In this document: in pieces, positions 1,097 to 54,216 of the stretch | Position numbering within the stretch: the first letter of the stretch is position 1 | How the letters are laid out: each line of letters opens with the position of its first letter | Assembly: GCA_026874595.1 (NCBI GenBank) | Contig: CM049315.1 | Coordinates: 67,093,916 to 67,157,915 of the forward strand | Source: Sipunculus nudus | Lineage: Eukaryota > Annelida > Sipuncula > Golfingiida > Sipunculidae | DNA: 64,000 bases | Direction of reading: 5' to 3' | Notes under the pieces: model-generated | Databases searched by the model: none | What the model was told of the DNA's origin: nothing | The model's input: only the letters and a program-made list of their open reading frames with translations | Program-made: the position numbers and the translations under genes

Positions 1097-1187
1097 ATGG
1101 ACAAGAATCCATCTTCTCCATTTGTGATAGCCAGAACTTTGATGAGGGACTTCAGAGATTGCAGAAGAAGAAAGATAATCTGATGGA
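1097..1187 (+). CDS. RAD50: RAD50 exon: end of ascending coiled coil before the zinc hook
   Basis: The exon follows an acceptor ending TTTTTAG and is 91 bp, entering with two bases of a codon and leaving with two. The translation contains SICDSQNFDEGLQRLQKKK, which aligns with the segment before the hook in animal RAD50 (vertebrate pattern VCGSQDFESDLDRL). The donor is GA/GTGAGT. A stop (GAG TGA) occurs at once if this donor is not used. The donor and the last exon bases lie in a 63-bp tandem duplication, so a second identical donor sits 63 bp downstream. The preceding exon is not in the window. Confidence 0.9.
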
Positions 1188-1304
1188 GTGAGTTCTCATA
1201 CTTCATTCACAGCACTTCTCTGTTGATAGGCTCAGTATTATGCTGATGGAGTGAGTTCTCATACTTCAATCACAGCACTTCTCTATTGATAGGCTCAGTG
1301 TTAT
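1180..1304 (+). repeat. 63-bp tandem duplication spanning a RAD50 5' splice site
   Basis: CTGATGGAGTGAGTTCTCAT starts at 1180 and again at 1243, and the two copies stay similar over the whole unit with a few substitutions. Each copy carries the last eight exon bases and the donor GA/GTGAGT. The second donor sits in intron 63 bp downstream. Using it would put TGA in frame immediately. Confidence 0.95.
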
Positions 1305-1999
1305 TGTGATGGTGTTATTTGGTTATTGCAAGGTTCCCATATGCCTGAAATACCTTAATGTATTTTCAAGTCATTTAAAGCTCATGAATTTAGCTGATTT
1401 GAAAATTCCCTGGAAAAAGACCTTGAATTCCATTTTCATGGTGTAACTGCTCTCTAATGGCTGGTTATTTAAGACTTGATCTCATTATTTTTTTAAACTA
1501 GACTTATAAAAATGGGGAATAAGAAAATAGAAAATGAGCATGATAGGACAACTAAGGGAGGGAGGGCTAGTGAAGGAGGATGTGCCAAAAAATGGACTTT
1601 AAGATCTGAATTAATATCCTGGAAAAACATTTTAAAGACATTAAAAATGATAAAATTTTTGAGAACCCTATATGGTATTCATGAGAAATCATTGGTATAG
1701 ACAAATTTGTGTGAGACAGCAGGTTGGTGTGCGTCTCTGGTTCTGCTTGAATTCAATTACTCTAACCATATTTTTTCTTCCAGTTTGCATGTTTGATGAA
1801 TAAGTTAAATTTTTTAACTTGGTAGTTCAGGAAAAGAGGATAAACTTGTAAAAATAGTTGTTTTGTATACAGGTTCTATTATTTAAAAAAATGTACTTTA
1901 ATGAGTAGTAAAAAAATGTTGGCCGGATGAAATTATTTTTGAAGGTTTGTCATGAAAAAGACAGAATCTAAGAAATTTTATTTATGTATTTGTAAACAG
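1305..1999. other. RAD50 intron, nothing notable
   Basis: A+T-rich sequence. A 62-codon frame at 1512 is Lys-rich by composition and has no support as a gene. Confidence 0.7.
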
Positions 2000-2135
2000 T
2001 CAAAAGGGGGCTTTACTGGCATCTGAGCGCATGTTTACCAAGTACGTGAATAAGTTGCAGCGAGAGGACCCACCGTGCCCATTGTGTAATCGCTGCTTTG
2101 ATGACCAGAAGGAGGTCCAGGACCTGATATATGAC
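2000..2135 (+). CDS. RAD50: RAD50 zinc-hook exon (CPLC motif)
   Basis: A 136-bp exon entering with one base that completes a GAT codon from the previous exon. It reads into RMFTKYVNKLQREDPPCPLC and then NRCFDDQKEVQDLIYD. The CxxC sequence CPLC is the RAD50 zinc hook (CPVC in vertebrates), where two RAD50 molecules each give two cysteines to a shared zinc ion at the apex of the coiled coils. The acceptor is GTAAACAG; the donor GAC/GTAGGT leaves phase 0, and joining to the next exon gives the colinear match YD-LTQKLS to vertebrate SD-LQSKLR. The ATG at 2031 is an internal methionine, not a start. Confidence 0.97.
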
Positions 2136-3215: not shown

Positions 3216-3329
3216 CTAACACAAAAGTTGTCAATGGTCCCAGAAAAAGTGGCAACAGCAGAAAAAGAATACACAGAAACAGAAACCAAGTATGTTTCCA
3301 TGATTCAGTTAAAGCCTACTCGTGAGAAG
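3216..3329 (+). CDS. RAD50: RAD50 exon: start of descending coiled coil
   Basis: A 38-codon, phase 0 to phase 0 exon with acceptor TTTGCTACAG and strong donor AAG/GTAAGT. The translation begins LTQKLSMVPEKVATAEKEY and ends QLKPTREK, matching the vertebrate segment LQSKLRLAPDKL that follows the hook. It is the first part of the returning antiparallel coiled coil. A TA microsatellite lies just upstream of the acceptor. The next exon is 33 kb away. Confidence 0.93.
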
Positions 3330-3478
3330 GTAAGTCCAACAGCCAGCAGGTCATACACATGGCTAATTGTTACACACATTAACTAGAGAGAACTCTGTGT
3401 GTGTGTCATTCTTTGGAGAAAAATAAAAAAAATGTATAATTTATTAAAATGTATAATTTATTAAATATATATATGGAT

Positions 3479-3860
3479 GAACATAGAAATAGTGAAACTG
3501 GTCACCTGTGACACACAAGTCAGATGTTCTACCGGCTTCGCTGTTAAAGCAAGCTTCACTACCAAGTCCAGAAGGTACACTTTTCTGTGCATGGTTACAT
3601 TTACCCCCCTCTCCAGGAATGTTCTGTCTCTAGAATGTGGGACTTTACCCCGGGGGTCACTCAAGTGATCTGGGTGGGGCATTATTCCACACCACCAACT
3701 CATCCCAAAGCTGCCACAGATGTAACAGGTGAACATAGAAATAGGGCCAAATGTTCATTCAAACCCGTTGCCTGTGACACACAGTCATATGTTCTACCGG
3801 CTTCACTAATAAAGGAAGCTTTACTAGCAACACCAATAGGAATGCTTCTTTGGACATGAT
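3479..3860. repeat. Two copies of a SINE-like segment, 252 bp apart
   Basis: GAACATAGAAATAG starts at 3479 and 3731. Both are followed by CCTGTGACACACA, TGTTCTACCGGCTTC and an AAGCTT-containing tail. The tail resembles the SINE-like unit at 35700-36215. It lies near the start of the 33-kb RAD50 intron. Confidence 0.6.
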
Positions 3861-6800
3861 TACATATAGCTTATACAAGGATTACCTCTAAAGTGTAGCC
3901 ATCAGTTTCTCTTGGTGTTTAATAACATTGAATTCTGCCACAAGATGCTTTGATTCCAAACAAAACAGATGGAGCACAAGCTGACAGAAATTAAAATCCT
4001 GCATGCTCAAATAGATCAGGCCCCATATATGACCAGCACTAACTTGCCTTAAGATGTGTTTCCATAAGTTTTTATGAGGATCAATAAATACGCAATATTT
4101 TGTAAACCAACAGAAAAAAAAGACTAGAGGGATGCAGGACCTCACTCTACAAAAATTGCCCCCCCCCCCCCCCCAAAAAATAATAAATTAGATAAAAAAA
4201 AAATGCTAGAGGCAAAGAATCAGTTTACTCTGTGTGATAATTCTTTTGAGATGACTAGTTTCTGATTTTGTGTTTAACATTTCTGAAAATCTTTTTATGC
4301 AGTAAAAGTCTGTTATTTCAAACATATTTGATTACTGGTATATTGAATTTAATTTGAGACAGTTGATGTATGGTGGCTTGTGTGCCCATTTGTATGTTTA
4401 ATGTTCATACTCTGTGAGTGAGACTCAGTTCTCTGATTCACAGTACAAGATGACTTTGAGTCAACGTGACCTCTTGTGCAAGGGGACAGTTCAAACACTT
4501 GTTGTGGGGCATTTAACATGTAAACACTTGTGGCAGTTATCTGTCTGCATTGTTGTATTTCTATTAGATGTGCATATTTGAATATGTGTTTTCATATTCG
4601 TAGACCTGAATCCATTTGTTGCTACAGTTGCTGGCCACTGATGTTGGTCTATTTTCCTGACAATACTTTAAAATTATTCACATTTATTCCCATGTTTGAT
4701 CTGTAATAGTAGCAGTGTAACCTAATTAATGAATCAAACCACAATTAAACTTATATAAACTAAAATATATTCTTTACTATCTCTCTGCTTTCCTAAATGG
4801 ACTAATATCTGATACTTTGCCTTTTTTGACAAAGAAAATTTGGATAATGACAGACTGAGCAAATTTTTATCACCTGATGAATAGTAAAAGATAAAAGAGA
4901 TTATTGCAGTGCAGAAGGATATATCTCAAGTATTGTTGTGTAGAATGATGTGAGGCTGCTTAAAAACTGTTTGAAAGCCAGGTGAGGAGTACAGTGAACC
5001 TGTAGACTTAGAACAGTACAATGATGGAAGTAGAGAGAAGCTGTAGAGTTAGTACAGTACAACTTTTACTTTCATCAAGCAATGTGATGCCAGGTATTCT
5101 GACTTATGAGTACCCAAGGGATGGCTGTTTAATACTATATTTTATGGGAAGTTTGTATGATATAGTAATTGCTCCAATATACTGTTACATGTATATATAT
5201 AAATATGGGCTTTATTCTTTTGTACATTTAAAGATCAAATAAATGGATGTTATGAAAATATTGTTAATTTATGTCAAAATATGAAAAGAGAGAATTAAAG
5301 ATGCTGATAGAGTTCAGATCTGCTGTGTCAGTAGTGTAAATGACAGTCACAGTATTTAAAAGGTATATATAATTATATATATAGGTAGTCTAGTAGATAA
5401 AACAAGTGCTTGTGATATGAGTCTATAGTCTATACAGGTATGAATTTATGGCATGGGCTGTGCAAGGTCTAGAATATCAAGTCTAGGCAGCTGACATTGT
5501 CGGTGAGACCAGTTGCCGAGACATTTCATATATAAAACCTGATCCACAGGCATCTTTTTCTATATAAAAAAAGGTTAATTTAAGAGCATGGAAGGAGAAA
5601 GGATGGTTAAAAATTTGGTTAATGATTTATTTATTTTCTTGTTTATAACAGATTCAAATAGTGTACAGTCTGCTATCTCTGCAAAATTTAGTAGTACTGT
5701 GCACTGTTAAAATTCATTGTTTACCATTTAAATGGATGACTGGTTTGATGACAGGTAATTAACTATACACCATCTCAACACTATCATACATGAAAAATGG
5801 GGAAACTAACACTACGAAAAAGGGGGATATATAACTCAGGGTTTTACAACCTTAATAATCCTTAGAAGGGCATCAAATTTCAAATGCAAGATTAAAGTAT
5901 TTAAAAGACAAGGAATCTTAGGAAAAGTGAAAAGGAAATAGAAAAAAAGCTGACTATGTATTTATCAGCGTTTTCATGATTAATACTTAAGAAAACATCC
6001 TGGTGACTGAAACAATTAAATACTTTATAGCTATATCCAGCAAAAACAAACATACTTAACATATCCCAGAAGTATGTTATGTTTTATCATTCCCTGGAAT
6101 TAATAAAAGACTGCCTTCAAGTATTATACAGACCAAGCAGAACTGTGTCAAAAATTATAAATCTAGTCCCTTCAGGTTTAATATGTAAAAAATCTTCTGA
6201 AGTGTATGATTAACTTAATTCTTCTGTTTTAATAATTCCCAAACACACAGTTTTAGACACAGGAGGGAAGTATAGGCAAATTTATGTTCAGCTGTGGATG
6301 AGGTACAACCCTGAGCCTTCACATGTCATTAATATTACAGTAACACATCTATGTTATAATTGATGGTGGGCACTCTGGACGTATGTCATGAAACTCCTCA
6401 GTAATCATGCCCCGGACATGCACATTAATCTTGATCTGTGATGAATTATTGCCAAGTGTTCTCTAATGAAGGTCATTTTCTTTATTTCTCCTTAAATCCA
6501 GAGATATCTCACATGTTTGAAGTGCAACCTGTCAGCAACTGCGATTGAGTATCAAAGGCAGAAAGCAGTTTGTAACTCTGATCAGCGCCTAAGGCCCTCC
6601 GTATCTTAACATTTTCTGAGACTCAAATATGTAATTACAAATGTTCAGTTGTTCTTGGAGCAACAAACAATTTGATTCTATCAATAAAGTAAGTAGTAAG
6701 TAGGGTTTGAAATAGACCTTTGTTTTATCTATTGCTTATCAATTCACAAATTATTTTTAGGCATGTTATGTTTAGCCAATCTTCACTATATTAATTGAAA

Positions 6801-9804: not shown

Positions 9805-12800
9805 CTGTACCAAAAGATAGAAATTAAACTACATGTATTTACTTTTGACAAGACTTCAATTGATAGAAAAATAAATATTTGATTTTTACCAGGTGCTTTT
9901 TGCTGTTTTCAGTTGAATATCACCAAAGACTAGTGGTACTGTTAAAATTATTCAGGTGACTTTATACATTTAAATTTTACCATGACATTTTGTTCATTGT
10001 ATACAATGAAAATTTGAATTAAGAACCCTGTATAAATTAATCCTGGATGAGGAAACTGAGGTGATATTAACAAGTCATAAAACACATCAGACCAAACATG
10101 CAACTGTAATTTGGTTACAGTTACCCTATCTTTCTTAATTTGAACTTGGAACCAGTAACTTATTTAGTTGACTCTAATAGGCTTCTTGGCCATGTCCTAC
10201 CCCTTTTCAAAAAGTTCCAGGGTTAACAAAAGTAAACATGAAACATAACATGGTCATGGTCCATGGGAAAAAAAATATCCCAAACATGACCGTCTTTTGA
10301 CCAGTATCACAAATCAGCAATTCACACCACCAGCATACAGTGGACCGTTGATCAGTTAGCAGGTCAGTAATGTGTAAGAAGTTCTCAAATAATTTAGACA
10401 ATTTTTTTCTCTGTTTTAATAAAATAAATTTGATTAATCCTATTTTGCAGAACTCTTTCACATTGATAACCCCCCCCCCCCCCCCCCCAAAAAAAAAGAA
10501 AAGAAAATATGAATGATATTGAGGAATATTTTGAGTAATATATTGACTCTGTTTTTCCCTAATTAAAATATATAATAATATTAGAAATATGTGATTTATC
10601 AAATTAATATATTTTGAAAGATAGTTTGTGTATGTGGTATGTGGTTCCAGTTTAAGTTTCAGTTATTAATAAAAAATTGTCTTTAGAAAGTGGTACACTT
10701 GGTTAATGTTATGTAAGTGTGCTGTAATACCTAAACATTCTAATACTGACTCTGGATCAAGATCTCTTTTACCTTATGATAATGTAATAGAGAACTGCCA
10801 CCTAATTAAGTGTTAAAATGACTTTTTGTCTCTTACTATGCTGAATAAAGAAACCTCTGTGTGTGTTTTTCGATATATATATATTACCCTCAATGAAATA
10901 GTGCATCCTGAAGTAAATTGATCACTGCTCTTTTTTTTTGCTTTTGTTAAGTTATACTGTTTTACAAGTTAAAAAGAACCTACTGCAATAAAACCACTAA
11001 AATGATGCTAATGATAACGGTGAGAACTGAGACATAAACTGTCTGCAGCATTAGGTGAATGTTCTTACTTATTCTGGGATGGAATCCTCTTGTCAAATGC
11101 GGTATAGTTGTGAATTTCACACACTGTCACATGTAATGGCTCCCTACAGCAAGTGAGATGGTCACATACTCAAGGATTATAAAGTAAAGAGCTAGCTGTC
11201 TCTCCAGGACCTCCAGCTACCGGTCAACTACCAATAAGATGCCAGTACCCTGAGGGTGCCAAGTACAAACCCTATTACAAAGTGAGGTGCATGTCATGCT
11301 TGACTTATGGATATCATGGAGATCTTGTGATGCTCAGCAAAGTGTTAACAAGGGATTTACCAGGGTAACTGTATATCCTTTAATGCTGGGTTACCTGGCC
11401 AAGGTGTTTCTTATGCTTAAGCCACTCCTGGGACCCTCTTGTGTACATACCCATGGGTATGACAGAACTGTGATAGATCAACATTGTTTTACTAAATAGC
11501 CTACATCTGTGTACTGAGCTCTTGGTTATTCTGAGCAGTGATCAGGTGTAAAGAAGGTGATACCCCTCAGCATCCCGGCCTCATCCTTACATCAATAGTT
11601 TATGTATTGGCTCTTAGTGAACACAGAGTATGACCTGTGCCTTGTCTAACTTTCCTTTCATCTCTTTAACTTCTGTACGGTGCAGTTATTTGAGACGTTT
11701 CTATAGGTGTGTATCCGTGGTGTTACCACCGGTCTCCGGTTAATTGATTGTAATTGATACTGTGTGATCTTGTGAGTATTTGTTACCAAAACATGACCTG
11801 TTACACTGTACCTCATTTTGTGTCTAGGAGTATCAAATTTGCTCCCAGGATTACAGGAAACGATGACTAGTTTCCTTCTAATGTTATGAAGTTTTAGATG
11901 GTTATGCTATATGATTTCAAAGTTAGCTAGGTTTTATATGAAAGTGTATCAGAAAAAAACTGGGAGCATTATTTATTTCAAATGTTAAGAGTCAGTAATA
12001 GCTGAATTCATATTACTTTTAAGAAATTGAGTGATTTAAGGAAATTAAGAAATTTTGATTTTTTTTATTTCAGAGACTCACTTTTGCACACATATAACTT
12101 AAATCTGGTCATCTGGCTCAATCTTGTCTTTATTTATATAAATTTATAAGAAATTTGATAACACAAAACTAATTTTTACCAAAATATTTTACCTGTGGCA
12201 CATACCTATTTTCAAACATTATAAATGACTGATGCAAACTGTTTAATTCCTAACCACATAGACTTTAGCCAAATATCCATAAGCTGTACCAATTCTTCTG
12301 CTCTCTAGGCATTTCTTAAGCTTTGTACAGATTTCTGAATATCCTGAACTGCTCTATACAAATATTACTTTACATTTTCCAACTTTACTAGTACTATTCT
12401 AGAATGGCTACATCTTTTCTTGAACAGTGAGATAATTCTGAAATGAAAGGTTCAGTATGGTTTCTTTGTTTCTCTAGCTCTGTTTAATAAGTTTTACTTA
12501 GAAGTATATAACTCTGTGTAAGGTAAATCAGAGTACTTCCATAAGCAGTACGTGCCTTATTAACTCTAAATCAGACTATTGCCAGATTTATCCCTGTTGA
12601 TGGTCAGATATGGTTATTTGGGTGAATGGTTTGGAATGCAAGTTCAAACCAGGGGGAAGGGGGATTTTTGGTCCGCTGTAGACTCATGTAAAATCATGAT
12701 CCACATTCTGTCAAGATTTAAATCAAATTATAATATTATTTCATTTGTAGTACGCATATTCTCAGAATCAGTCGACCTTGCTTAAATTTAGCTTTGAAAA

Positions 12801-12827
12801 TATATATTCAGAAAACTATTAGCCCAA

Positions 12828-12828
<1 letters not shown>
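9805..12828. other. Upstream side of the nested antisense gene; no exon identified
   Basis: If the minus-strand ORF begins at a splice acceptor, its upstream exons should lie here or further right. No frame with convincing coding composition was found, and a 5' untranslated exon could not be recognised by eye. Confidence 0.5.
10471..10497. repeat. Poly-C/poly-A homopolymer runs
   Basis: A C run followed by an A run. Other C or G runs are at 4160-4175, 16131-16148, 23325-23353, 36987-36997, 39099-39121 and 39931-39950. Such runs generate spurious Gly- or Pro-rich frames. Confidence 0.95.

Positions 12829-12877
<49 letters not shown>
12829..12877. repeat. TA dinucleotide microsatellite
   Basis: A run of alternating TA adjoining the left end of the MITE at 12891. 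Similar TA runs occur at 14790-14825, 13640-13655 and, as a GT-then-AT compound, at 62868-62925. Confidence 0.95.
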
Positions 12878-12884
<7 letters not shown>

Positions 12885-12890
12885 TAGATA

Positions 12891-13639
12891 TGTCACAGTG
12901 GAGGTTACAATCCAGTTGGATTGGAATTTCCCCTAGGAGAGATCGCAACTGGGATAAATTTTACCCGCAGGTAAATATTGGGCCATAGCTATGAGATAAA
13001 TAAAACTTACCAATACCAGTTACTCATATTTCGTGTTTCTAAAATATTTTAATGTAATTTGTAATATAAAAATAATATAATATATAGCTAAGTAATTACT
13101 ATGTACATTAATATATTTATTATTGAAAACTAGATTTATATAAATATATACAGAACTATATACTAGTAAAAATGTATATATGGGCAACATAACTGCCATT
13201 TCATGAAATAGGCAATGTCACATTTTGGGCGTAACATATTAACAGATTCTTTAAACACAGTTTATTGTAAGAAATCTTTTGATGTGTATTTTTGAATGCA
13301 TTAACATTATACTTGTGTAAATCTTATCATTATTAAATCACTTTTCATTCAGACGTTTCCATGAATTTACATAATCATAAATTGTGACATGATATTCAGT
13401 AGGATTTAGATTTCTCCTAGTAGAGATTATGATTTCTACTAGACTCAAGCCAGTTGAGATCCCAATTGTGAGAGGATATTCAGTGGGATTTTAATTTCTC
13501 CTAGAAGAGATTATGTTAGTGATTTCCACTAGACAAGCCAGTGGAGATTCCAATTGTGATCTCTCCTAGGAGAGATCCCAATTGTGATCTCACCTAATGG
13601 AATTTCCAATCCCACTGGATTGTCATCTCCACTGTGACA
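12891..13639. mobile_element. TA-flanked inverted-repeat DNA element (MITE-like), 749 bp
   Basis: The ends are inverted repeats of about 41 bp starting TGTCACAGTGGAG (left) and ending CTCCACTGTGACA (right), with roughly five mismatches, each flanked by TA in a TA microsatellite. Inside are several related palindromic blocks of the type TTTCTCCTAGNAGAGAT. There is no transposase frame. TA target sites are typical of Tc1/mariner-pogo type elements. Confidence 0.85.
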
Positions 13640-13655
13640 TATATATATATATATA

Positions 13656-14364
13656 ATTGATGTTTAGAATAAACTCTGTTAGATCTGCTAAATATACTGT
13701 AATTGACTTTTTTGTTTACAAGGAACACAAAAATTTACTATATTTGTGAAATTGAAAAATCAGTTTTACTAAAGCCTTCTACTATTGGTATATCATGTAG
13801 GTTATCTGTTCATGTCTGTTACATCAAAAGGCAAGTGATTGATAATATAAAAATAACATATCTTTTATTTTATGTGTCAAGAATAAATAAGAAATACCAA
13901 TGACATAATAATTGTTATATATAATCTATAAAAATTTCATGTAAGTCCTTGAAAATTATACACCACTAATGTGAAGCCAACCACAGTAATGATAAAGTTT
14001 TAGTTACTAGTTTGAAGATTTTAAAATTTAAGGAAAATTTTCAGTTTTTAAGGAATACTATATATATATATTACATATCTCTACAAGTAAATTGTTAATA
14101 ATAATATCATACAAAATGCATACAAACATCAAGTATTTTTATATACTGTGCAATTATCATCTTATTTTTTTTAATTTTAAAGGTTTTTGATGATTTACAA
14201 ATGATTGTTTATGACCAAAAATGTAGCTGCTTTATGAAATAAGAGAAAAGAAAAACATATTTTACTGATCTATAAGAAAGTACAAATTAGGAAACACTGT
14301 CCATTGTACAAGATTCAACAGGTGTTGTATATTATATATATAGATTTGTAATTAACACCTCAGC
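13656..14364. other. Intronic A+T-rich sequence
   Basis: No gene, repeat family or structured element recognised between the MITE and the 388-bp duplication. Confidence 0.6.
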
Positions 14365-14752: not shown

Positions 14753-14785
14753 CAGATTATACAAAGTATAATTAATTTTTAAAAT

Positions 14786-17453: not shown

Positions 17454-20400
17454 TTAGCTCAGCTGACTGAAAGTCATCGAGATATAGCGATCACTCTTTG
17501 TCCGTCGTCCGCCTGTCTGTCCGTTAACCAGGCATAAATCGTAATTGCAGGACCTAGAATCTTGTAACTTGGGATTCTGAGAGGTCCATGAAAAGTCTCC
17601 ATGGAAACCTGAAATTAGGTCTCTGTTACTTAAATCCTGCGAGCTATGGGGCCCCAAAGTACCCCCCAGAATAGTAAAAAATTTCATACAAAAACTTCAA
17701 TATCTCATTAACTACATCACTGATGGTCATGATTTTTGGCATACATATTGATCATGGAGTGTTCCATCAGTTTCTGCAGACTGGGGGCACCACCTGTATT
17801 TGTTCAGGTTTATTTTACGAATTTTCCTCTATTTTTGAGACCTTTGAAGATATGAACATCTGTTAACAGGGCACAAATTGTAACAACTGGACCTAGAATC
17901 TTCATTCTTGACACACAGGGAGAGACCCATGAAAAGTCTCCATAGAAACCTGAAATTAGGTCTCTGTTACCAATATCCTTTAAGCTGTATGGCTAAAAAA
18001 TACTCCCCAGAATAATGAAAAATTTGATACAAAAACTGCAGTATCTCAATAACTACAACACTGATGGTCATGATTTTTAGCTCAGCTGACTATAAGTCAT
18101 CTGAGCTATAGTCGTGGTCCATTGTCCGTCGTCCGTCCGTCTGTCCGTCCGTCCGTCCGTCCGTCCGTCCGTCCGTCCGTAGATGTGGCACGTTTTGAAA
18201 CCGTAAGACCTAGGAATCCAAAATTCAGCATAATGTTAGATGTCCCCAAGATCTCCTACCAAGCCAAAAACTGGGTCTTTGCGACTTCATTCCTTTGAAA
18301 AATTAAGGAAAAACCTCAATTTTTTATTAAAAACCTATTTTCACACTTTAGGACTGCCTAATATCAAAACCACTCATCTGTTTTTCCTCATATTTCCTAT
18401 AAATAATCCTCTATATAATTCCTATGTACATGCCAGAAATTAGGTCTGTATTATTTAATTTAAAAAAGTTATGGGCCCAAACATAATGCATTTTTTAAAT
18501 AATCAGGAAAGAAATTTTATCACTTAACACAAAACTTGTTAAAGCTAAGCACTTTTTTTCCAGTAATATTACTTTTATTAATCAAAATTAAATTGTATAC
18601 CCAAAATTAGATCAAAATCTTTTAAATTTTTTAAAATATTAGCAAAAATAAAAAATTGGTACCTTAAATTTTGCCCAACTTTGACCATGGCACGTTTTTT
18701 TGCTGTAACTGCTGTGGATTTAATTTTCACAGCATGTTTTTGTTAGCATTTCAACTGTTAACACCAAAAATTTGAAACCAGTTGATCAAAAACTGTAGAT
18801 TTTATTCAAGTTTTCAAGCACCATGTCACATATTGCTAGTGTTATGCAGTTTGCTAGAGCTCAGCTCCCGAGCTTCAGCTCTAAGTTCCTTAAATTTGGC
18901 ATACAGTTAGATTTCTCCAAAATCCCCTACCATGCCAAGAATTTGGTCACTAGGACTTAATTCCTTCAAGATATCAATGAAAAACTTAATTTTTCCATTA
19001 AAAACCCAATGTTACACTTTAAGACTGCCTAATATCAAAACCACTGATCTGACTTTGATCATATATAATATACATATTTTTCTATACATTCACTATGCAC
19101 ATGCCAGAAATGATGTCAGTATTGTGTATTTTTTTTAAGTTATGGGCCCAAACATAATGCACTTTGTAAAAAATCAAGAAATATATTTACTCCCTTAACA
19201 AGGGCATTGCTGAAGCTAGAGATTTTTTTTGTCAGGGATGTAACATTATTTAATCAAGATTCAATTGTATACCCAAAATTAGTTCTGAATTTTTCAAATT
19301 TTATAAGTTATTAGTATAAATATAAAATTAGTACCTTAAATTTTGCCCAACTGTGACCATGGCACGTTTGTTTCCCGTGAGCACTGTTGATATAATTTTC
19401 ATATCTTGCACACATAAGGATTTCAGCTTTTTAGTTTAGAAAGCTGAAAGAAATTTGCCAAATATTGTAGCTTTTATTAATGTTTTTTATGAGACCCTGT
19501 CAGACTTTGGCTCTCTCAAGCCCCTCTTGAGTCGCCTGTATGTTGACCTTGTTGACCTTTCATCAAATTATGCACGCTTGAGGGGAGAATCCAGGCAGCT
19601 GATGGCCAGCCACAGTTGATCCAGGTGTTCAACCAAACTCATCTAGTAGTTTTAACCAACAACATAACAATAAACAATAAATTAATAAATTTTTATTGGT
19701 TTTTAATAACAAATTAAAGAAAAATAGAAAAGGAATTTGTTAGTTTATAATAACAGGAAATTAACTTGCAGTTACTGATGATATAAGAATCTTGTATCGA
19801 TGGGTAGAATGTCACATATTCCAAATAACACCATGCAGTCACCTATGGCATTTTTCAGTTCATTTTTAATGATAAAGAAGTAAATCATATTATTCATTAC
19901 TAATCATTAAGGATTATATGAAGGAAATTAATGATAGACAAAGATGCAGTTGATAATATTAATCTAGATTCCTACTGTGTCTAGTGTGTACATTGATGTG
20001 AAATTAGTCCAAAATGAATTTTTTACAGTTATATTTTAATATAAATAAAAGCCATAAAACCAGGTACTTATGATCATTATTTAAATGTGTGAATTTTGTA
20101 TATTCTGGATTCTCAACATCATTGTTTGGTGAAAACTGAATAAATACCAGACGTGGTGCGAATACTTTGTAATTGTATTTAAATACGAATATGATTATGT
20201 ACTCCATTATAAAATTTCTTGCATAAAGAATGGGAATTCAGGTAAAAATGAAAGTATATGAATACTCGTGCAAATACTTTCAAAATGTATTCATGAATGC
20301 ATTCATGAATATATTCTTTAATATTATTTTAATAATCATATCAGTTATATTTCATTTTAAAAAATCATATGATTCTCTTATTATTTTTAATAAAAATTAT

Positions 20401-36338: not shown

Positions 36339-36434
36339 ATATCTGAGTTGGAGCAGCATGACATCCCCCGTCTGAGGACTAGTATGAAGGAGGCGGAGCG
36401 TATGATTGAGAAGCTGAGGTCAGACATATCTGGG
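36339..36434 (+). CDS. RAD50: RAD50 exon: descending coiled coil, followed by duplicated donors
   Basis: A 32-codon phase 0 exon with acceptor ATATTTTAG. The translation starts ISELEQHDIPRLRTSMKEAE and ends MIEKLRSDISG, aligning with vertebrate DLKEKEIPELRNKL. The first usable donor is GGG/GTAAGA at 36435. The last 33 exon bases and the first intron bases are the founder of a seven-copy, 48-bp tandem array, so near-identical donors recur downstream. Splicing at the second donor would add 16 in-frame residues. I take the first donor as the default because it gives the colinear protein. Confidence 0.9.
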
Positions 36435-36725
36435 GTAAGACATGAGCAAATGATTGAGAAGCTGAGGTCAGACATATCAGGGGTAAGACATGAGCGTATG
36501 ATTGAGAAGCTGGTCAGGGGTAAGATGTGAGCATATGATTGAGAAGCTGAGGTCAGACATATCAGGGGTAAGACATGAGCGTATGATTGAGAAGCTGAGG
36601 TCAGACATATCAGGGGTAAGATGTGAGCATATGATTGAGAAGCTGAGGTCAGACATATCAGGGGTAAGATGTGAGCGCATGATTGAGAAGCTGAGGTCAG
36701 GCATATCAGTAGTAAGACGTGACTA
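36402..36725 (+). repeat. Seven-copy 48-bp array of RAD50 exon end plus 5' splice site
   Basis: ATGATTGAGAAGCTG recurs at 36402, 36450, 36498, 36535, 36583, 36631 and 36679. The period is 48 bp except for the third copy, which has lost 11 bp. Each unit holds 33 bases of exon-like sequence, a GTAAGA donor and 15 bp of intron. Read through in the RAD50 frame, copies 1 and 2 are open (16 residues per unit). The deletion in copy 3 shifts the frame into a TGA at 36528. Confidence 0.97.
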
Positions 36726-38077: not shown

Positions 38078-38225
38078 AAAGAAGAGGATCTGACTGTTAC
38101 ACAGAGTGATCTAGAGACGGCCAAGGCCCTTCAGCCTGACATGGTTATGATTGACCGCGATCAGTATGAGCTGCGAAACTGTGAAAGAAGAATCATATCC
38201 CAGGCTGCAAAGATAACAGGCGGAG
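38078..38225 (+). CDS. RAD50: RAD50 exon: descending coiled coil
   Basis: A 148-bp exon entering at phase 0 and leaving one base over. It begins KEEDLTVTQSDLETAKALQ, continues through PDMVMIDRDQYELRNCERR and ends ISQAAKITGG. The last part matches vertebrate KIAQQAAKLQG, and the joined junction reads GGDSDRTIQQV against vertebrate GIDLDRTVQQV. The acceptor is CTTGACAG and the donor GGAG/GTATTG. Confidence 0.93.
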
Positions 38226-42713: not shown

Positions 42714-45505
42714 TGTGTCTGTTTCCACACATAAACCCACATATCTTGGGAACCGTTTGACCAATCAGGCTAAAAATTTTGCACAAATGTAGCCCTTTGA
42801 TAGCTTTAAAACATACACTAAAAATGGTGGCGCCACCTGCAACCATTTATGCACTTATCCACCTGAAATCCAAGCTCATATCTCGGGAACCGTTTGACCG
42901 ATAAGGCCAAAATTTTGCATGTGTATAGATCTCACATAGCTCTTCATCATAGGCAAAACTGGTGGTGCCACCTGCAACCATTTATGCACAGCATCCATCT
43001 GTTGAATTGCCTTGGGATAAAATCACTCATATCTCAGCAGTGGTTTGACTTTTCCACCTGAAATTTTGCAGGTATTTTACATCCTGGACAGCTTTCTCGA
43101 TTTAATGACAGGTGGCACCACCTACACTCACATTTACTCTGCAGACATCCAAGCTCATATCTCGGGAACCGTTTGACCGATTAGGCCAAAATTTTGCATG
43201 TGTATAGATCTCACATAGCTCTTCATCATAGGCAAAACTGGTGGTGCCACCTGCAACCATTTATGCACAGCGTCCATCTGTTCATCTGCCTTGGGATAAA
43301 ATCACTTATATCTCAGCAGTGGTTTGACTTATCCACCTGAAATTTTGCAGGTTTATACATCCTGGACAGCTTTCTCAATTTTATGACAGGTGGCGCCACC
43401 TACATTCACATTTACTCTGCAGACATCCAAGCTCATATCTCTGGAACAGTTTGACTGATTGGGCAAAAATTTTGCTTGTGTATAGATCTCACATAGCTCT
43501 TCATCATAGGCAAAACTGGTGGTGCCACCTGCAACCACTTATGCACAGCATCCATCTGTTGAACTGCCTTGGGATAAAACCACTCATATCTCAGCAGTGG
43601 TTTGACTTTTCCACCTGAAATTTTGCAGGTATTTTACATCCTGGACAGCTTTCTCGATTTAATGACAGGTGGCACCACCTACACTCACATTTACTCTGCA
43701 GACATCCAAGCTCATATCTCGGGAACCGTTTGACCGATTAGGCCAAAATTTTGCATGTGTATAGATCTCACATAGCTCTTCATCATAGGCAAAACTGGTG
43801 GTGCCACCTGCAACCATTTATGCACAGCGTCCATCTGTTCATCTGCCTTGGGATAAAATCACTTATATCTCAGCAGTGGTTTGACTTATCCACCTGAAAT
43901 TTTGCAGGTTTATACATCCTGGACAGCTTTCTCAATTTTATGACAGGTGGCGCCACCTACATTCACATTTACTCTGCAGACATCCAAGCTCATATCTCTG
44001 GAACAGTTTGACTGATTGGGCAAAAATTTTGCTTGTGTATAGATCTCACATAGCTCTTCATCATAGGCAAAACTGGTGGTGCCACCTGCAACCACTTATG
44101 CACAGCATCCATCTGTTGAACTGCCTTGGGATAAAACCACTCATATCTCAGCAGTGGTTTGACTTTTCCACCTGAAATTTTGCAGGTATTTTACATCCTT
44201 GACAGCTTTCTCAATTTTATGACAGGTGGCGCCACCTACATTCACATTTACTCTGCAGACATCCAAGCTCATATCTCGGGAACCGTTTGACCGATAAGGC
44301 CAAAATTTTGCATGTGTATAGATCTCACATAGCTCTTCATCATAGGCAAAACTGGTGGTGCCACCTGCAACCATTTATGCACAGCATCCATCTGTTGAAC
44401 TGCCTTGGGATAAAATCACTCATATCTCAGCAGTGGTTTGACTTTTCCACCTGAAATTTTGCAGGTATTTTACATCCTTGACAGCTTTCTCGATTTTATG
44501 ACAGGTGGCGCCACCTACTTTCACATTTACTCTGCAGACATCCAAGCTCATATCTCGGGAACCGTTTGACCGATTAGGCCAAAATTTTGCATGTGTATAT
44601 ATCTCACAGAGCTCTTCATCATAGGCAAAACTGGTGGTGCCACCTGCAACCATTTATGCACAGCGTCCATCTGTTCATCTGCCTTGGGATAAAATCACTC
44701 ATATCTCCGCAGTGGTTTGACTTATCCACCTGAAATTTTGCAGGTTTATACATCCTGGACAGCTTTCTCAATTTTATGACAGGTGGCGCCACCTACTTTC
44801 ACATTTACTCTGCAGACATCCAAGCTCATATCTCGGGAACAGTTTGACCGATTGGGCAAAAATTTTGCTTGTGTATAGATCTCACATAGCTCTTCATCAC
44901 AGGCAAATCTGGTGGTGCCACCTGCAACCATTTATGCACAGCGTCCATCTGTTCATCTGCCTTGGGATAAAATCACTCATATCTCAGCAGTGGTTTGACT
45001 TATCCACCTGAAATTTTGCAGGTTTATACATCCTGGACAGCTTTCTCGATTTTATGATAGGTGGCGCCACCTACATTCATGTTTACTCTGTAGACATCCA
45101 AGCTCATATCTCGGGAACCGTTTGACCGATTGAGCCAAAATTTTGCTTGTGTATAGATCTCAGATAGCTCTTCATCATAGGCAAAACTGGTGGTGCCACC
45201 TGCAACCACTTATGCACAGCATCAATCTGTTGAACTGCCTTGGGATAAAACCACTCATATCTCAGTAGTGGTTTGACTTATCCACCTGAATTTTGCAGGT
45301 TTATACATCCTGGACAATTTTCTTGATTTTATGACAGGTGGCACCACCTACATTCACGTTTAAGCTGCAGACATCCATGCTAATATGCAACACATCACGC
45401 TCTATTCCCCTTGCCACTTAATCCATGCCTCACTTCACCCGTCCCACTCTGATTTCTGCGGATACACATAGTGGCTTGTTGACTACCCATATTCTGGTTT
45501 TAAAA
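42714..45505. repeat. Family E satellite: 278-bp tandem units with a 557-bp higher-order repeat
   Basis: Units contain ATCTCGGGAACCGTTTGACC, CTCTTCATCATAGGCAAAAC, TGGTGGTGCCACCTGCAACC and GACAGGTGGCGCCACCTACA, repeating about every 278 bp. The block near 43003-43559 is repeated almost exactly at 43560-44116 (557 bp, two units). It ends with GGCTTGTTGACTACCCATAT near 45475. Minus-strand frames of 61-77 codons recur once per unit and are treated as by-products. Confidence 0.9.
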
Positions 45506-51060: not shown

Positions 51061-54000
51061 ACAGCAACATTTGGTGTAGTACAGGAAGCAATACACAGAT
51101 ACAGATGGTGTAGTACATGAAGCAGTACACAGCTACAGATGGTGAAGTACAGGGAGCAATACACAGCTACATATAGTGTAGTACAGGAACCAATACACAG
51201 CTACAGATGGTGTAGTACAGGGAGCAATACACAGCTACAAATGGTATAGTACAGGGAGCAATACACAGCTACAGATGGTGTAGTACAGGGAACAATACAC
51301 AGCTACAGATAGTGTAGTACAGGGAACAATACAAAGCTACAGATGGTGTAGTACAGGAAGCAATACACAGTTACAGATGGTGTAGTACAGGAAGCAATAC
51401 ACAACTACAGATGGTGTAGTACAGGAAACAAAACAAAGCTACAGATGGTGTAGTACAGGAAGCAATACACAGTTACAGATGGTGTAGTACAGGGAGCAAT
51501 ACACAGCTACAGATGGTGTGTTACAGGAAGTAGTACACAGGTACAGATGGTGTAGTACAGGGAGCAATACACAGCTACAGATGGTGTGTTACAGGAAGCA
51601 GTACACAGCTACAGATGGTATAGTACAGGAAGCAATGCACAGCTACAGATGGTGTAGTACAGGGAGCAATACACAGCTACAGATGGTGTAGTACAGGGAG
51701 CAATACACAGCTACAGATGGTGTGTTACAGGAAGTAGTACACAGGTACAGATGGTGTAGTACAGGAAGCAGTACACAGCTACAGATGGTATAGTACAGGA
51801 AGCAATACACAGTTACAGATGGTGTAGTACAGGAAGCAATACACAGTTACAGATGGTGTAGTACAGGAAGCAATACACAGCTACAGATGGTGTAGTACAG
51901 GGAGCAATACACAGCTACAGATGGTGTGTTACAGGAAGCAGTACACAGCTACAGATGGTATAGTACAGGAAGCAATGCACAGCTACAGATGGTGTAGTAC
52001 AGGGAGCAATACACAGCTACAGATGGTGTAGTACAGGGAGCAATACACAGCTACAGATGGTGTGTTACAGGAAGTAGTACACAGGTACAGATGGTGTAGT
52101 ACAGGAAGCAATACACAGCTGCAGATGGTGTAGTACAGGGAGCAATACACAGCTACAGATGGTGTGTTACAGGAAGTAGTACCCAGGTACAGATGGTGTA
52201 GTACAGGAAGAAATACACAGCTACAGATGGTGTAGTACAGGAAGCAATACACAGCTACAGATGGTGTAGTACAGGGAGCAATACACAGCTACAGATGGTG
52301 TGTTACAGGAAGCAGTACACAGCTACAGATGGTATAGTACAGGAAGCAATACACAGCTACAGATGGTGTAGTACAGGGAGCAATACACAGCTACAGATGG
52401 TGTGTTACAGGAAGCAGTACACAGCTACAGATGGTGTGTTACAGGAAGCAGTACACAGCTACAGATGATGTAGTACAGGAAGCAATACACAGCTGTAGAT
52501 GGTGTAGTATAGGAAGCAATGCACAGCTTGAGATGGTGTAGTACAGGGAGCAGTACACAGCTACAGATGGTGTAGTACAGGGAACAATACACAGCTGCAG
52601 ATAGTGTAGTACAGGGAACAATACAAAGCTACAGATGGTGTAGTACAGGGAACAATACACAGCTGCAGAAAGTGTAGTACAGGGAGCAATACACAGCTAC
52701 AGATGGTGTAGTACAGGGAGCAATACACAGCTACAGATGGTGTAGTACAGGGAACAATACACAGCTGCAGATAGTGTAGTACAGGGAACAATACACAGCT
52801 ACAGATGGTGTGTTACAGGAAGCAATACACAGCTGTAGATGATGTAGTACAGGAAGCAATGCACAGCTACAGATGGTGTGTTACAGGAAGCAGTACACAG
52901 CTACAGATGGTGTGTTACAGGAAGCAGTACACAGCTACAGATGGTGTAGTACAGGGAGCAATACACAGCTACAGATGGTGTAGTACAGGAAGCAATACAC
53001 AGCTGCAGATAGTGTAGTACAGGGAGCAATACACAGCTACAGATGGTGTAGTACAGGAAGCAATACACAGCTGCAGATAGTGTAGTACAGGGAGCAATAC
53101 ACAGCTACAGATAGTGTAGTACAGGAAGCAATACACAGCTGGAGATGATGTAGTACAGGAAGCAATACACAGCTACAGATGGTGTGTTACAGGAAGCAGT
53201 ACACAGCTACAGATGGTGTGTTACAGGAAGCAGTACACAGCTACAGATGGTGTAGTACAGGGAGCAATACACAGCTACAGATGGTGTAGTACAGGAAGCA
53301 ATACACAGCTGCAGATAGTGTAGTACAGGGAGCAATACACAGCTACAGATGGTGTAGTACAGCAAGCAATACACAGCTGCAGATAGTGTAGTACAGGGAG
53401 CAATACACAGCTACAGATGGTGTAGTACAGGAAGCAATACACAGCTGCAGATAGTGTAGTACAGGAAGCAATACACAGCTGTAGATGATGTAGTACAGGG
53501 AGCAATACACAGCTACAGATGGTGTAGTACAGGAAGCAATACACAGCTGCAGATAGTGTAGTACAGGAAGCAATACACAGCTGTAGATGATGTAGTACAG
53601 GAAGCAATGCACAGCTACAGATGCCGTAGTACAGGGAGCAATACACAGCTACAGATGGTGTAGTACAGGGAGCAAAACACAGCTACAGATGGTGTGTTAC
53701 AGGAAGTAGTACACAGGTACAGATGGTGTAGTACAGGAAGCAATACACAGCTGCAGATGGTGTAGTACAGGGAGCAATACACAGCTACAGATGGTGTAGT
53801 ACAGGGAGCAATACACAGCTACAAATGGTATAGTACAGGGAGCATTACACAGCTACAGATGGTGTAGTACAGGGAACAATACACAGCTACAGATAGTGTA
53901 GTACAGGGAACAATACAAAGCTACAGATGGTGTAGTACAGGAAGCAATACACAGTTACAGATGGTGTAGTACAGGAAGCAATACACAACTACAGATGGTG

Positions 54001-54216
54001 TAGTACAGGAAACAATACAAAGCTACAGATGGTGTAGTACAGGAAGCAATACACAGTTACAGATGGTGTAGTACAGGGAGCAATACACAGCTACAGATGG
54101 TGTGTTACAGGAAGTAGTACACAGGTACAGATGATGTAGTACAGGAAGCAATACACAGCTACAGATGGTGTAGTACAGGAAGCAATACACAGCTGTAGAT
54201 GGTGTAGTATAGGAAA
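51061..54216. repeat. 34-bp minisatellite array, about 90 copies
   Basis: Head-to-tail units of the type ACAGCTACAGATGGTGTAGT followed by ACAGGGAGCAATAC, with recurring variants (GGGAGC/GGAAGC, GTAGTA/GTGTTA, CTACAG/CTGCAG/CTGTAG). Variant units occur in repeated blocks, which implies higher-order duplication. It lies in the RAD50 intron between the exons at 49790 and 55511. Long open frames on the minus strand are an artefact of the period (three units make 34 codons without stops). Confidence 0.97.

Follow-up and report, generated by a model that had tools for sequence, protein, structure and literature searches.

A probable minisatellite straddling the splice donor of a RAD50 exon in Sipunculus nudus and similar arrays at other splice sites of the genome

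The analysed stretch, referred to as the window, comprises 64,000 nucleotides of the Sipunculus nudus assembly GCA_026874595.1 (contig CM049315.1, positions 67,093,916 to 67,157,915, forward strand) and carries part of one RAD50 gene. The RAD50 identity proposed in a preliminary description of this DNA was confirmed by the model TIGR00606, which matches the locus exon by exon over model positions 2 to 1296, with gaps, and by the CxxC zinc hook, present as CPLC in the hook exon. In total, 30 exons of the gene were placed, some with approximate ends; at least some exons, including the first, are absent from this set. The exons of the window needed here are the following (window positions, numbering of this report):

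1097..1187, + strand: RAD50 exon E17, the donor of which is also duplicated
2000..2135, + strand: RAD50 zinc-hook exon (CPLC)
3216..3329, + strand: RAD50 exon E19, followed by a 33-kb intron
36339..36434, + strand: RAD50 exon E20, 96 nt, ISELEQHDIPRLRTSMKEAERMIEKLRSDISG
38078..38225, + strand: RAD50 exon E21, next after E20

Exon E20 (36339-36434) is in phase with its neighbour exons, and E21 starts at position 38078. The five exons around the array described below can be joined without a stop; some exons elsewhere in the gene were not located. The 33-kb intron occupies positions 3330-36338, between E19, which comes after the zinc-hook exon, and E20. RAD50 introns of the window contain two further long repeats, namely a 278-bp unit in about 9 copies (42868-45386) and a 34-bp unit in about 93 copies (51061-54215).

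At the 3' end of E20, tandem-repeat and motif analysis delimited an array that includes the splice donor:

36396..36720, + strand: seven-copy array straddling the E20 splice donor
Copy starts, + strand: 36396, 36444, 36492 (37 bp), 36529, 36577, 36625, 36673

Tandem Repeats Finder (TRF) reported the array at 36396-36722 with a period of 48, 7.0 copies and a score of 465. The copies lie head to tail with lengths of 48, 48, 37, 48, 48, 48 and 48 bp, so that TRF and the copy-by-copy positions agree with the seven copies at 48 bp, one of them of 37 bp, noticed originally. The division of the unit into 33 exon and 15 intron bases did not hold. The array starts six bases earlier than first noted: the exon already contains GAGCGT before ATGATTGAG, and the unit thus consists of about 39 exon and 9 intron bases, a division which is our reading and is ambiguous by about 2 bp. 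Not counting gaps, any two copies differ at between 1 and 6 bases. An alternating pattern common to copies 2-3 and 4-5 suggests that the array may have grown partly in pairs. The net loss of 11 bp in copy 3 is most simply read as two losses of 2 bp and 9 bp, or as one 11-bp loss together with one substitution. Allowing up to two mismatches, a 23-base core of the unit was matched six times in the 1.43-Gb assembly, in each case inside the E20 array, and its reversed control was not matched in the same assembly. Moreover, E20 with the array, used as a DNA query with very common words skipped, matched only this place. The array is not a chance match.

Each copy carries a candidate splice donor:

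36435..36440, + strand: donor 1, GGG/GTAAGA, ancestral, U1 duplex -9.2 kcal/mol
36483..36488, + strand: donor 2, same as donor 1; extends E20 by 48 nt in the open frame and adds the 16 residues VRHEQMIEKLRSDISG
36520..36525, + strand: donor 3, same as donor 1; +85 nt, frame shifted
36528..36530, + strand: TGA, first in-frame stop of extended E20
36568..36717, + strand: donors 4-7 (GT at 36568, 36616, 36664 and 36712), frame shifted and past the stop

The donor-strength scoring suggested for all seven sites was carried out. Donors 1-6 all read GGG/GTAAGA over nine bases and pair equally with U1 (-9.2 kcal/mol), whereas donor 7, GTA/GTAAGA, is weaker (-4.5). Since donors 1-6 tie both in U1 pairing and in the donor matrix, strength makes no choice among them. 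Among 26 RAD50 donors, donor 1 ranks 9th by this matrix, built from the 25 other donors of the gene and hence from few sites, and 12th by U1 pairing. RNA accessibility predictions did not single out donor 1, and their values varied with the stretch folded; in the local folding model donor 1 was the least open (0.019 compared with up to 0.073). Accessibility was therefore dropped as a guide to donor choice, being fold-dependent and not highest for donor 1.

Translation through the neighbouring exons showed that the five-exon join is open with donors 1 and 2 only, as had been predicted for these two, and that donors 3-7 each give stops. The open frame does extend over copies 1 and 2 as described, and in addition over most of copy 3. 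It is ended at copy 3, as proposed; the first in-frame stop is the TGA at 36528-36530.

These results bear on the original proposal of two RAD50 isoforms, one spliced from donor 1 and the other, longer by 16 residues, from donor 2; the insert would lie some 90 residues past the zinc hook. The identity of the two donors over nine bases and the openness of the +48 form through the neighbouring exons speak for such isoforms, and donor 2 is, furthermore, the only extra donor that is in frame and open among 76 in six arrays of this genome. However, a period that is divisible by three and free of stops would not be rare by chance. Furthermore, the a/d pattern of heptads is clear in E20 (best register 4.38, next 1.91), and the insert favours a register two positions away from it; the heptad signal of E21 is weak (0.95 compared with a best of 1.07). 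As 16 is not a whole number of heptads, the insert would be expected to disturb the coiled coil.

Comparison with homologues bears on the same proposal. The join of E20 to E21 by donor 1 aligns without gaps to human RAD50 residues 741-818 (9q9h chain A, E 4.4e-8). Two more RAD50-like loci were found in the assembly, paralogue b on the window's contig (C10:66.704-66.751 Mb) and paralogue c on another (C16:19.345-19.435 Mb); in alignments, they are closer to each other than to the RAD50 gene of the window. A total of three RAD50 loci seems unusual for an animal; a literature search on RAD50 copies in molluscs gave nothing pertinent among the matches listed. The exon corresponding to E20 measures 96 nt in both paralogues, and no local copies were detected at its border when this site was scanned in b and c. 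Among the three RAD50 loci, the E20 array thus belongs to the window gene alone. The gap-free alignment with human RAD50 and the 96-nt, array-free exons of b and c identify donor 1 as the ancestral donor, which gives the ancestral exon length and protein. The 16-residue insert is absent from the homologues compared, i.e., human RAD50 and paralogues b and c. Given the ancestral length produced by donor 1, the lack of the insert in b and c and the register offset by two positions, a RAD50 isoform series is not supported. Joint use of donors 1 and 2 as an isoform source appears improbable, and any 16-residue form is probably noise. In b and c, the E20 counterpart is followed by an apparent GC-AG intron with the donor AAG/GCACGT, common to both.

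In order to place the E20 array in context, tandem arrays were compared with exons in the RAD50 gene, in paralogues b and c and in three extra gene regions, namely XPB and two XPD-like genes, one on C3 and the other on C10 (18, 7 and 7 exon matches). The names RAD50, XPB and XPD-like rest on the NCBIfam models TIGR00606, TIGR00603 and TIGR00604; rad25 and rad3 were presumed to be XPB and XPD. XPB matches occur at one locus, besides one single-frame match on contig C105. The C3 gene was covered over 7 of its 15 matched stretches; family matches on C4 and C7 as well as DNA polymerase matches were left out of the survey. By tblastn, 22 of 31 exons were found in b and 18 of 31 in c; these and the E20 counterpart are the exons scanned in the paralogues. 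Besides the E20 array, the following arrays lie across splice sites:

RAD50 exon E3, donor array: 25 bp x 9.0
RAD50 exon E7, donor array: 62 bp x 1.9
1180..1312, + strand: RAD50 exon E17, donor array with two GGA/GTGAGT donors, 63 bp x 2.1
RAD50 exon E12, acceptor array: 57 bp x 15.3
RAD50 exon E29, acceptor array: 36 bp x 19.5
Paralogue b exon E2 (L001-L005 joined, local 3323-6285, reverse), acceptor array: 43 bp x 68.9
XPB (C13 near 9,067,214, L026 within L025-L027, local 17688-18946), donor array starting in the exon end: 29 bp x 43.4
XPD-like gene on C3 (L031-L033 joined, local 12666-13810, reverse), donor array: 43 bp x 27.2

Six such arrays were thus found among the 30 placed exons of the RAD50 gene. 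When the gene was scanned separately for 24-mers with a copy no more than 1.5 kb away, the same borders were flagged, 6 of 59 (four donors and two acceptors), all with copies on the intron side. With the arrays in paralogue b, XPB and the C3 gene, the total comes to nine splice-site-straddling arrays in six loci, with eight different periods, on three contigs. By motif, 39 AAG/GTR donors were counted in the XPB array, 23 CAG/GTNW donors in the C3 array and 17 copies of CAG/AGTATC in the paralogue b array, where three flagged AGs were taken as one acceptor; copies of the XPB and C3 arrays without the motif are missed by this count. No flagged border was observed among the 18 exons found in paralogue c, although 43% of its 24-mers are copied, and the XPD-like gene on C10 showed no splice-site array at its 7 exon matches. 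A flagged XPB donor at local position 14759 was set aside because it follows stops, and flagged C3 acceptors at 13769-13803 were set aside as the far end of an array already counted. Competing donors at one exon of a repair gene had been expected to be unusual; this does not hold for the present genome, where arrays across a splice site were found at five more exons of RAD50 and in three additional genes.

The six donor arrays contain 76 extra donors (8, 1, 1, 6, 38 and 22), one of which, donor 2 of the E20 array, is in frame and open; the extension belonging to the extra E17 donor, for instance, contains a stop. All 22 extra acceptors counted by motif in the E12 and E29 arrays (14 and 8) run into stops. 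As nearly all extra sites tested lead to a frameshift or a stop, they must normally be skipped. That extra donors in the sister arrays are normally useless also counts against the use of donor 2 as a source of isoforms.

The number and diversity of the arrays also weigh on two further explanations. The use of donors 3-6 in part of the transcripts could lead to a stop and destruction of the message, so that copy number would tune the RAD50 level. The stops obtained with donors 3-7 agree with such a dosage brake, and in human CBS more repeats were reported with lower activity in the accessible part of PMC5188458. However, the eight other arrays would each have to act as brakes as well, which is not economical, and only a slim chance is given to this explanation. 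Alternatively, the assembler might have inserted or multiplied the E20 copies. The copies differ by substitutions and one has its own deletion, the array is short at 325 bp, and nine such arrays with eight periods occur on three contigs, all of which makes an assembly artefact very improbable.

Based on these results, the E20 array is quite probably a minisatellite straddling a splice site, with donor 1 used and the spare donors tolerated, and an example of a kind that recurs in this genome. According to the proposed course of events, a founding segment across the 3' end of E20, comprising about 39 exon and 9 intron bases with the donor, would have been tandemly duplicated and expanded into the intron in the manner of a minisatellite. 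Splicing would take donor 1, the copy adjoining the exon core, and the other donors would be removed with the intron, leaving message and protein unchanged. More generally, tolerance of such arrays would follow from use of the site nearest the exon core, which is the first donor in a donor array and the last acceptor in an acceptor array. Judged from the sequence alone, donor 1 would be used nearly always and the spare copies would be close to neutral. The array is probably of little consequence for RAD50.

For the genes carrying these arrays to function, splicing must nearly always take the first donor or the last acceptor. In the XPB array, U1 pairing is stronger for four of the extra donors than for the first donor (-10.0 compared with -6.8), and it would have to be position, not strength, that settles the choice. 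Hence, closeness to the exon core is inferred to govern site choice here. In the text accessible for a designed library, the first donor was predominantly used when both tandem donors were consensus (PMC6783452), which agrees with a first-donor rule. In contrast, the intron-proximal one of comparable donors was described as favoured in the accessible parts of PMC6002489, with the reason given there as not known, and of PMC5585400, the latter for DOK7. Both are in tension with the rule; in the E20 array, an intron-proximal choice would give a stop-containing RAD50. A further point against the tolerated-minisatellite reading is that two more RAD50-like genes exist, so that loss of the window copy might be tolerated, although, in most stretches shared with b and c, the highest score against the RAD50 model is that of the window gene.

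The closest known system is the 31-bp variable number tandem repeat (VNTR) at the exon 13-intron 13 border of human CBS, given as c.1444_1467+7(16_21) in the accessible part of PMC2630376; as read here, this notation describes 16-21 copies of a unit made up of 24 bases of exon and 7 of intron. Like the CBS repeat so described, the E20 unit straddles a 5' splice site, runs head to tail and multiplies the donor; its first copy spans the end of the exon and the remaining ones are intronic. The two differ in gene, in sequence, which is unrelated, and in copy number (16-21 compared with seven). Moreover, CBS has copy-number alleles with a reported effect on activity (PMC5188458, as far as its accessible text goes), whereas the RAD50 array is known from one assembly and, unlike in CBS, arrays of the same kind recur at several borders of RAD50. 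With alternative 5' splice sites (A5E), as outlined in the accessible text of PMC2423196, the E20 border shares at least two candidate donors, of which donor 2 keeps the frame; unlike those described there, the E20 sites arose as tandem duplicates, and the extra ones are candidate donors only. Ordinary intronic minisatellites resemble the array in tandem growth, stepwise differences between copies and a mostly intronic position, but coding sequence and a splice site form part of the E20 founding unit. In the literature searched on splice-site competition and on repeats at, or duplication of, splice sites, CBS was the only border array recognised, and no report of such arrays recurring across the exons of one gene was found. 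For a repeat-containing gene, new donors are described in PMC6692358, the accessible text of which does not place them inside the repeat.

Recurrence raises the further possibility that splice sites are preferred starts of short-period tandem duplication in this genome; essential genes would then carry arrays with as many as about 40 donors, or with acceptors by the dozen, and use only the site nearest the exon core. In the RAD50 gene, 24.7% of intronic 24-mers but 2.8% of those in exon interiors have a near copy within 1.5 kb. Compared with the intronic value, 6 of 59 RAD50 borders with copies is no excess at borders. Paralogue c, copy-rich and without a flagged border, also counts against a preference. 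When founders were placed at random, nine straddling arrays were observed against 5.5 expected for all periods (P 0.11); for the loci other than the window gene, this test took border numbers of 43, 35, 35, 14 and 14, uncurated values equal to double the number of exons found or one below that. For periods of 12-100, a cut chosen after the nine arrays were known, eight of 78 arrays straddle a splice site against 1.5 expected (P 1.5e-4). The E12 array had been listed at a 227-bp multiple of its unit and was thus outside the 12-100 list; entered at its 57-bp unit, it raised the result to 9 of 79 against 1.5 expected (P 2.9e-5). Genome-wide, triple AGGTAAG with gaps of 15-45 was counted 2781 times, compared with 1100 times for the reversed motif, a count dominated by few large arrays: by eye, among the first 100 places listed for each motif, 5 compared with 4 distinct arrays occur in the first 7.57 Mb of C1. 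The three tests disagree. Tandem growth may thus prefer splice sites, a possibility suggested only after the post hoc period cut. A general preference with use of the innermost site is regarded as doubtful.

The recurrence of splice-site minisatellites is the more interesting result compared with the RAD50 isoform reading. How a choice is made between near-identical splice sites is unsettled, the accessible parts of the two reports cited above favouring the first donor (PMC6783452) and the intron-proximal one (PMC6002489). Arrays of 7 to about 40 donors test this choice directly, because nearly every other choice gives a stop or a frameshift. If splice sites were indeed preferred starts of tandem growth, this would represent a new mutational bias and would provide a natural genome-wide experiment separating position from strength in splice-site choice. 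Through such growth, the length of a repeat could also come to adjust the output of a gene, as has been reported in human CBS.

In addition, smaller contigs of the assembly gave matches to further protein families. Long single-frame haem-copper oxidase matches lie on contigs such as C60-C62, C66, C72, C74, C75, C89 and C123, helicase matches on C95 and C105, and DNA polymerase B matches on C106. The match on C123 is read here as a cbb3-type oxidase subunit, and these small contigs apparently stem from bacteria or from other non-host sources.
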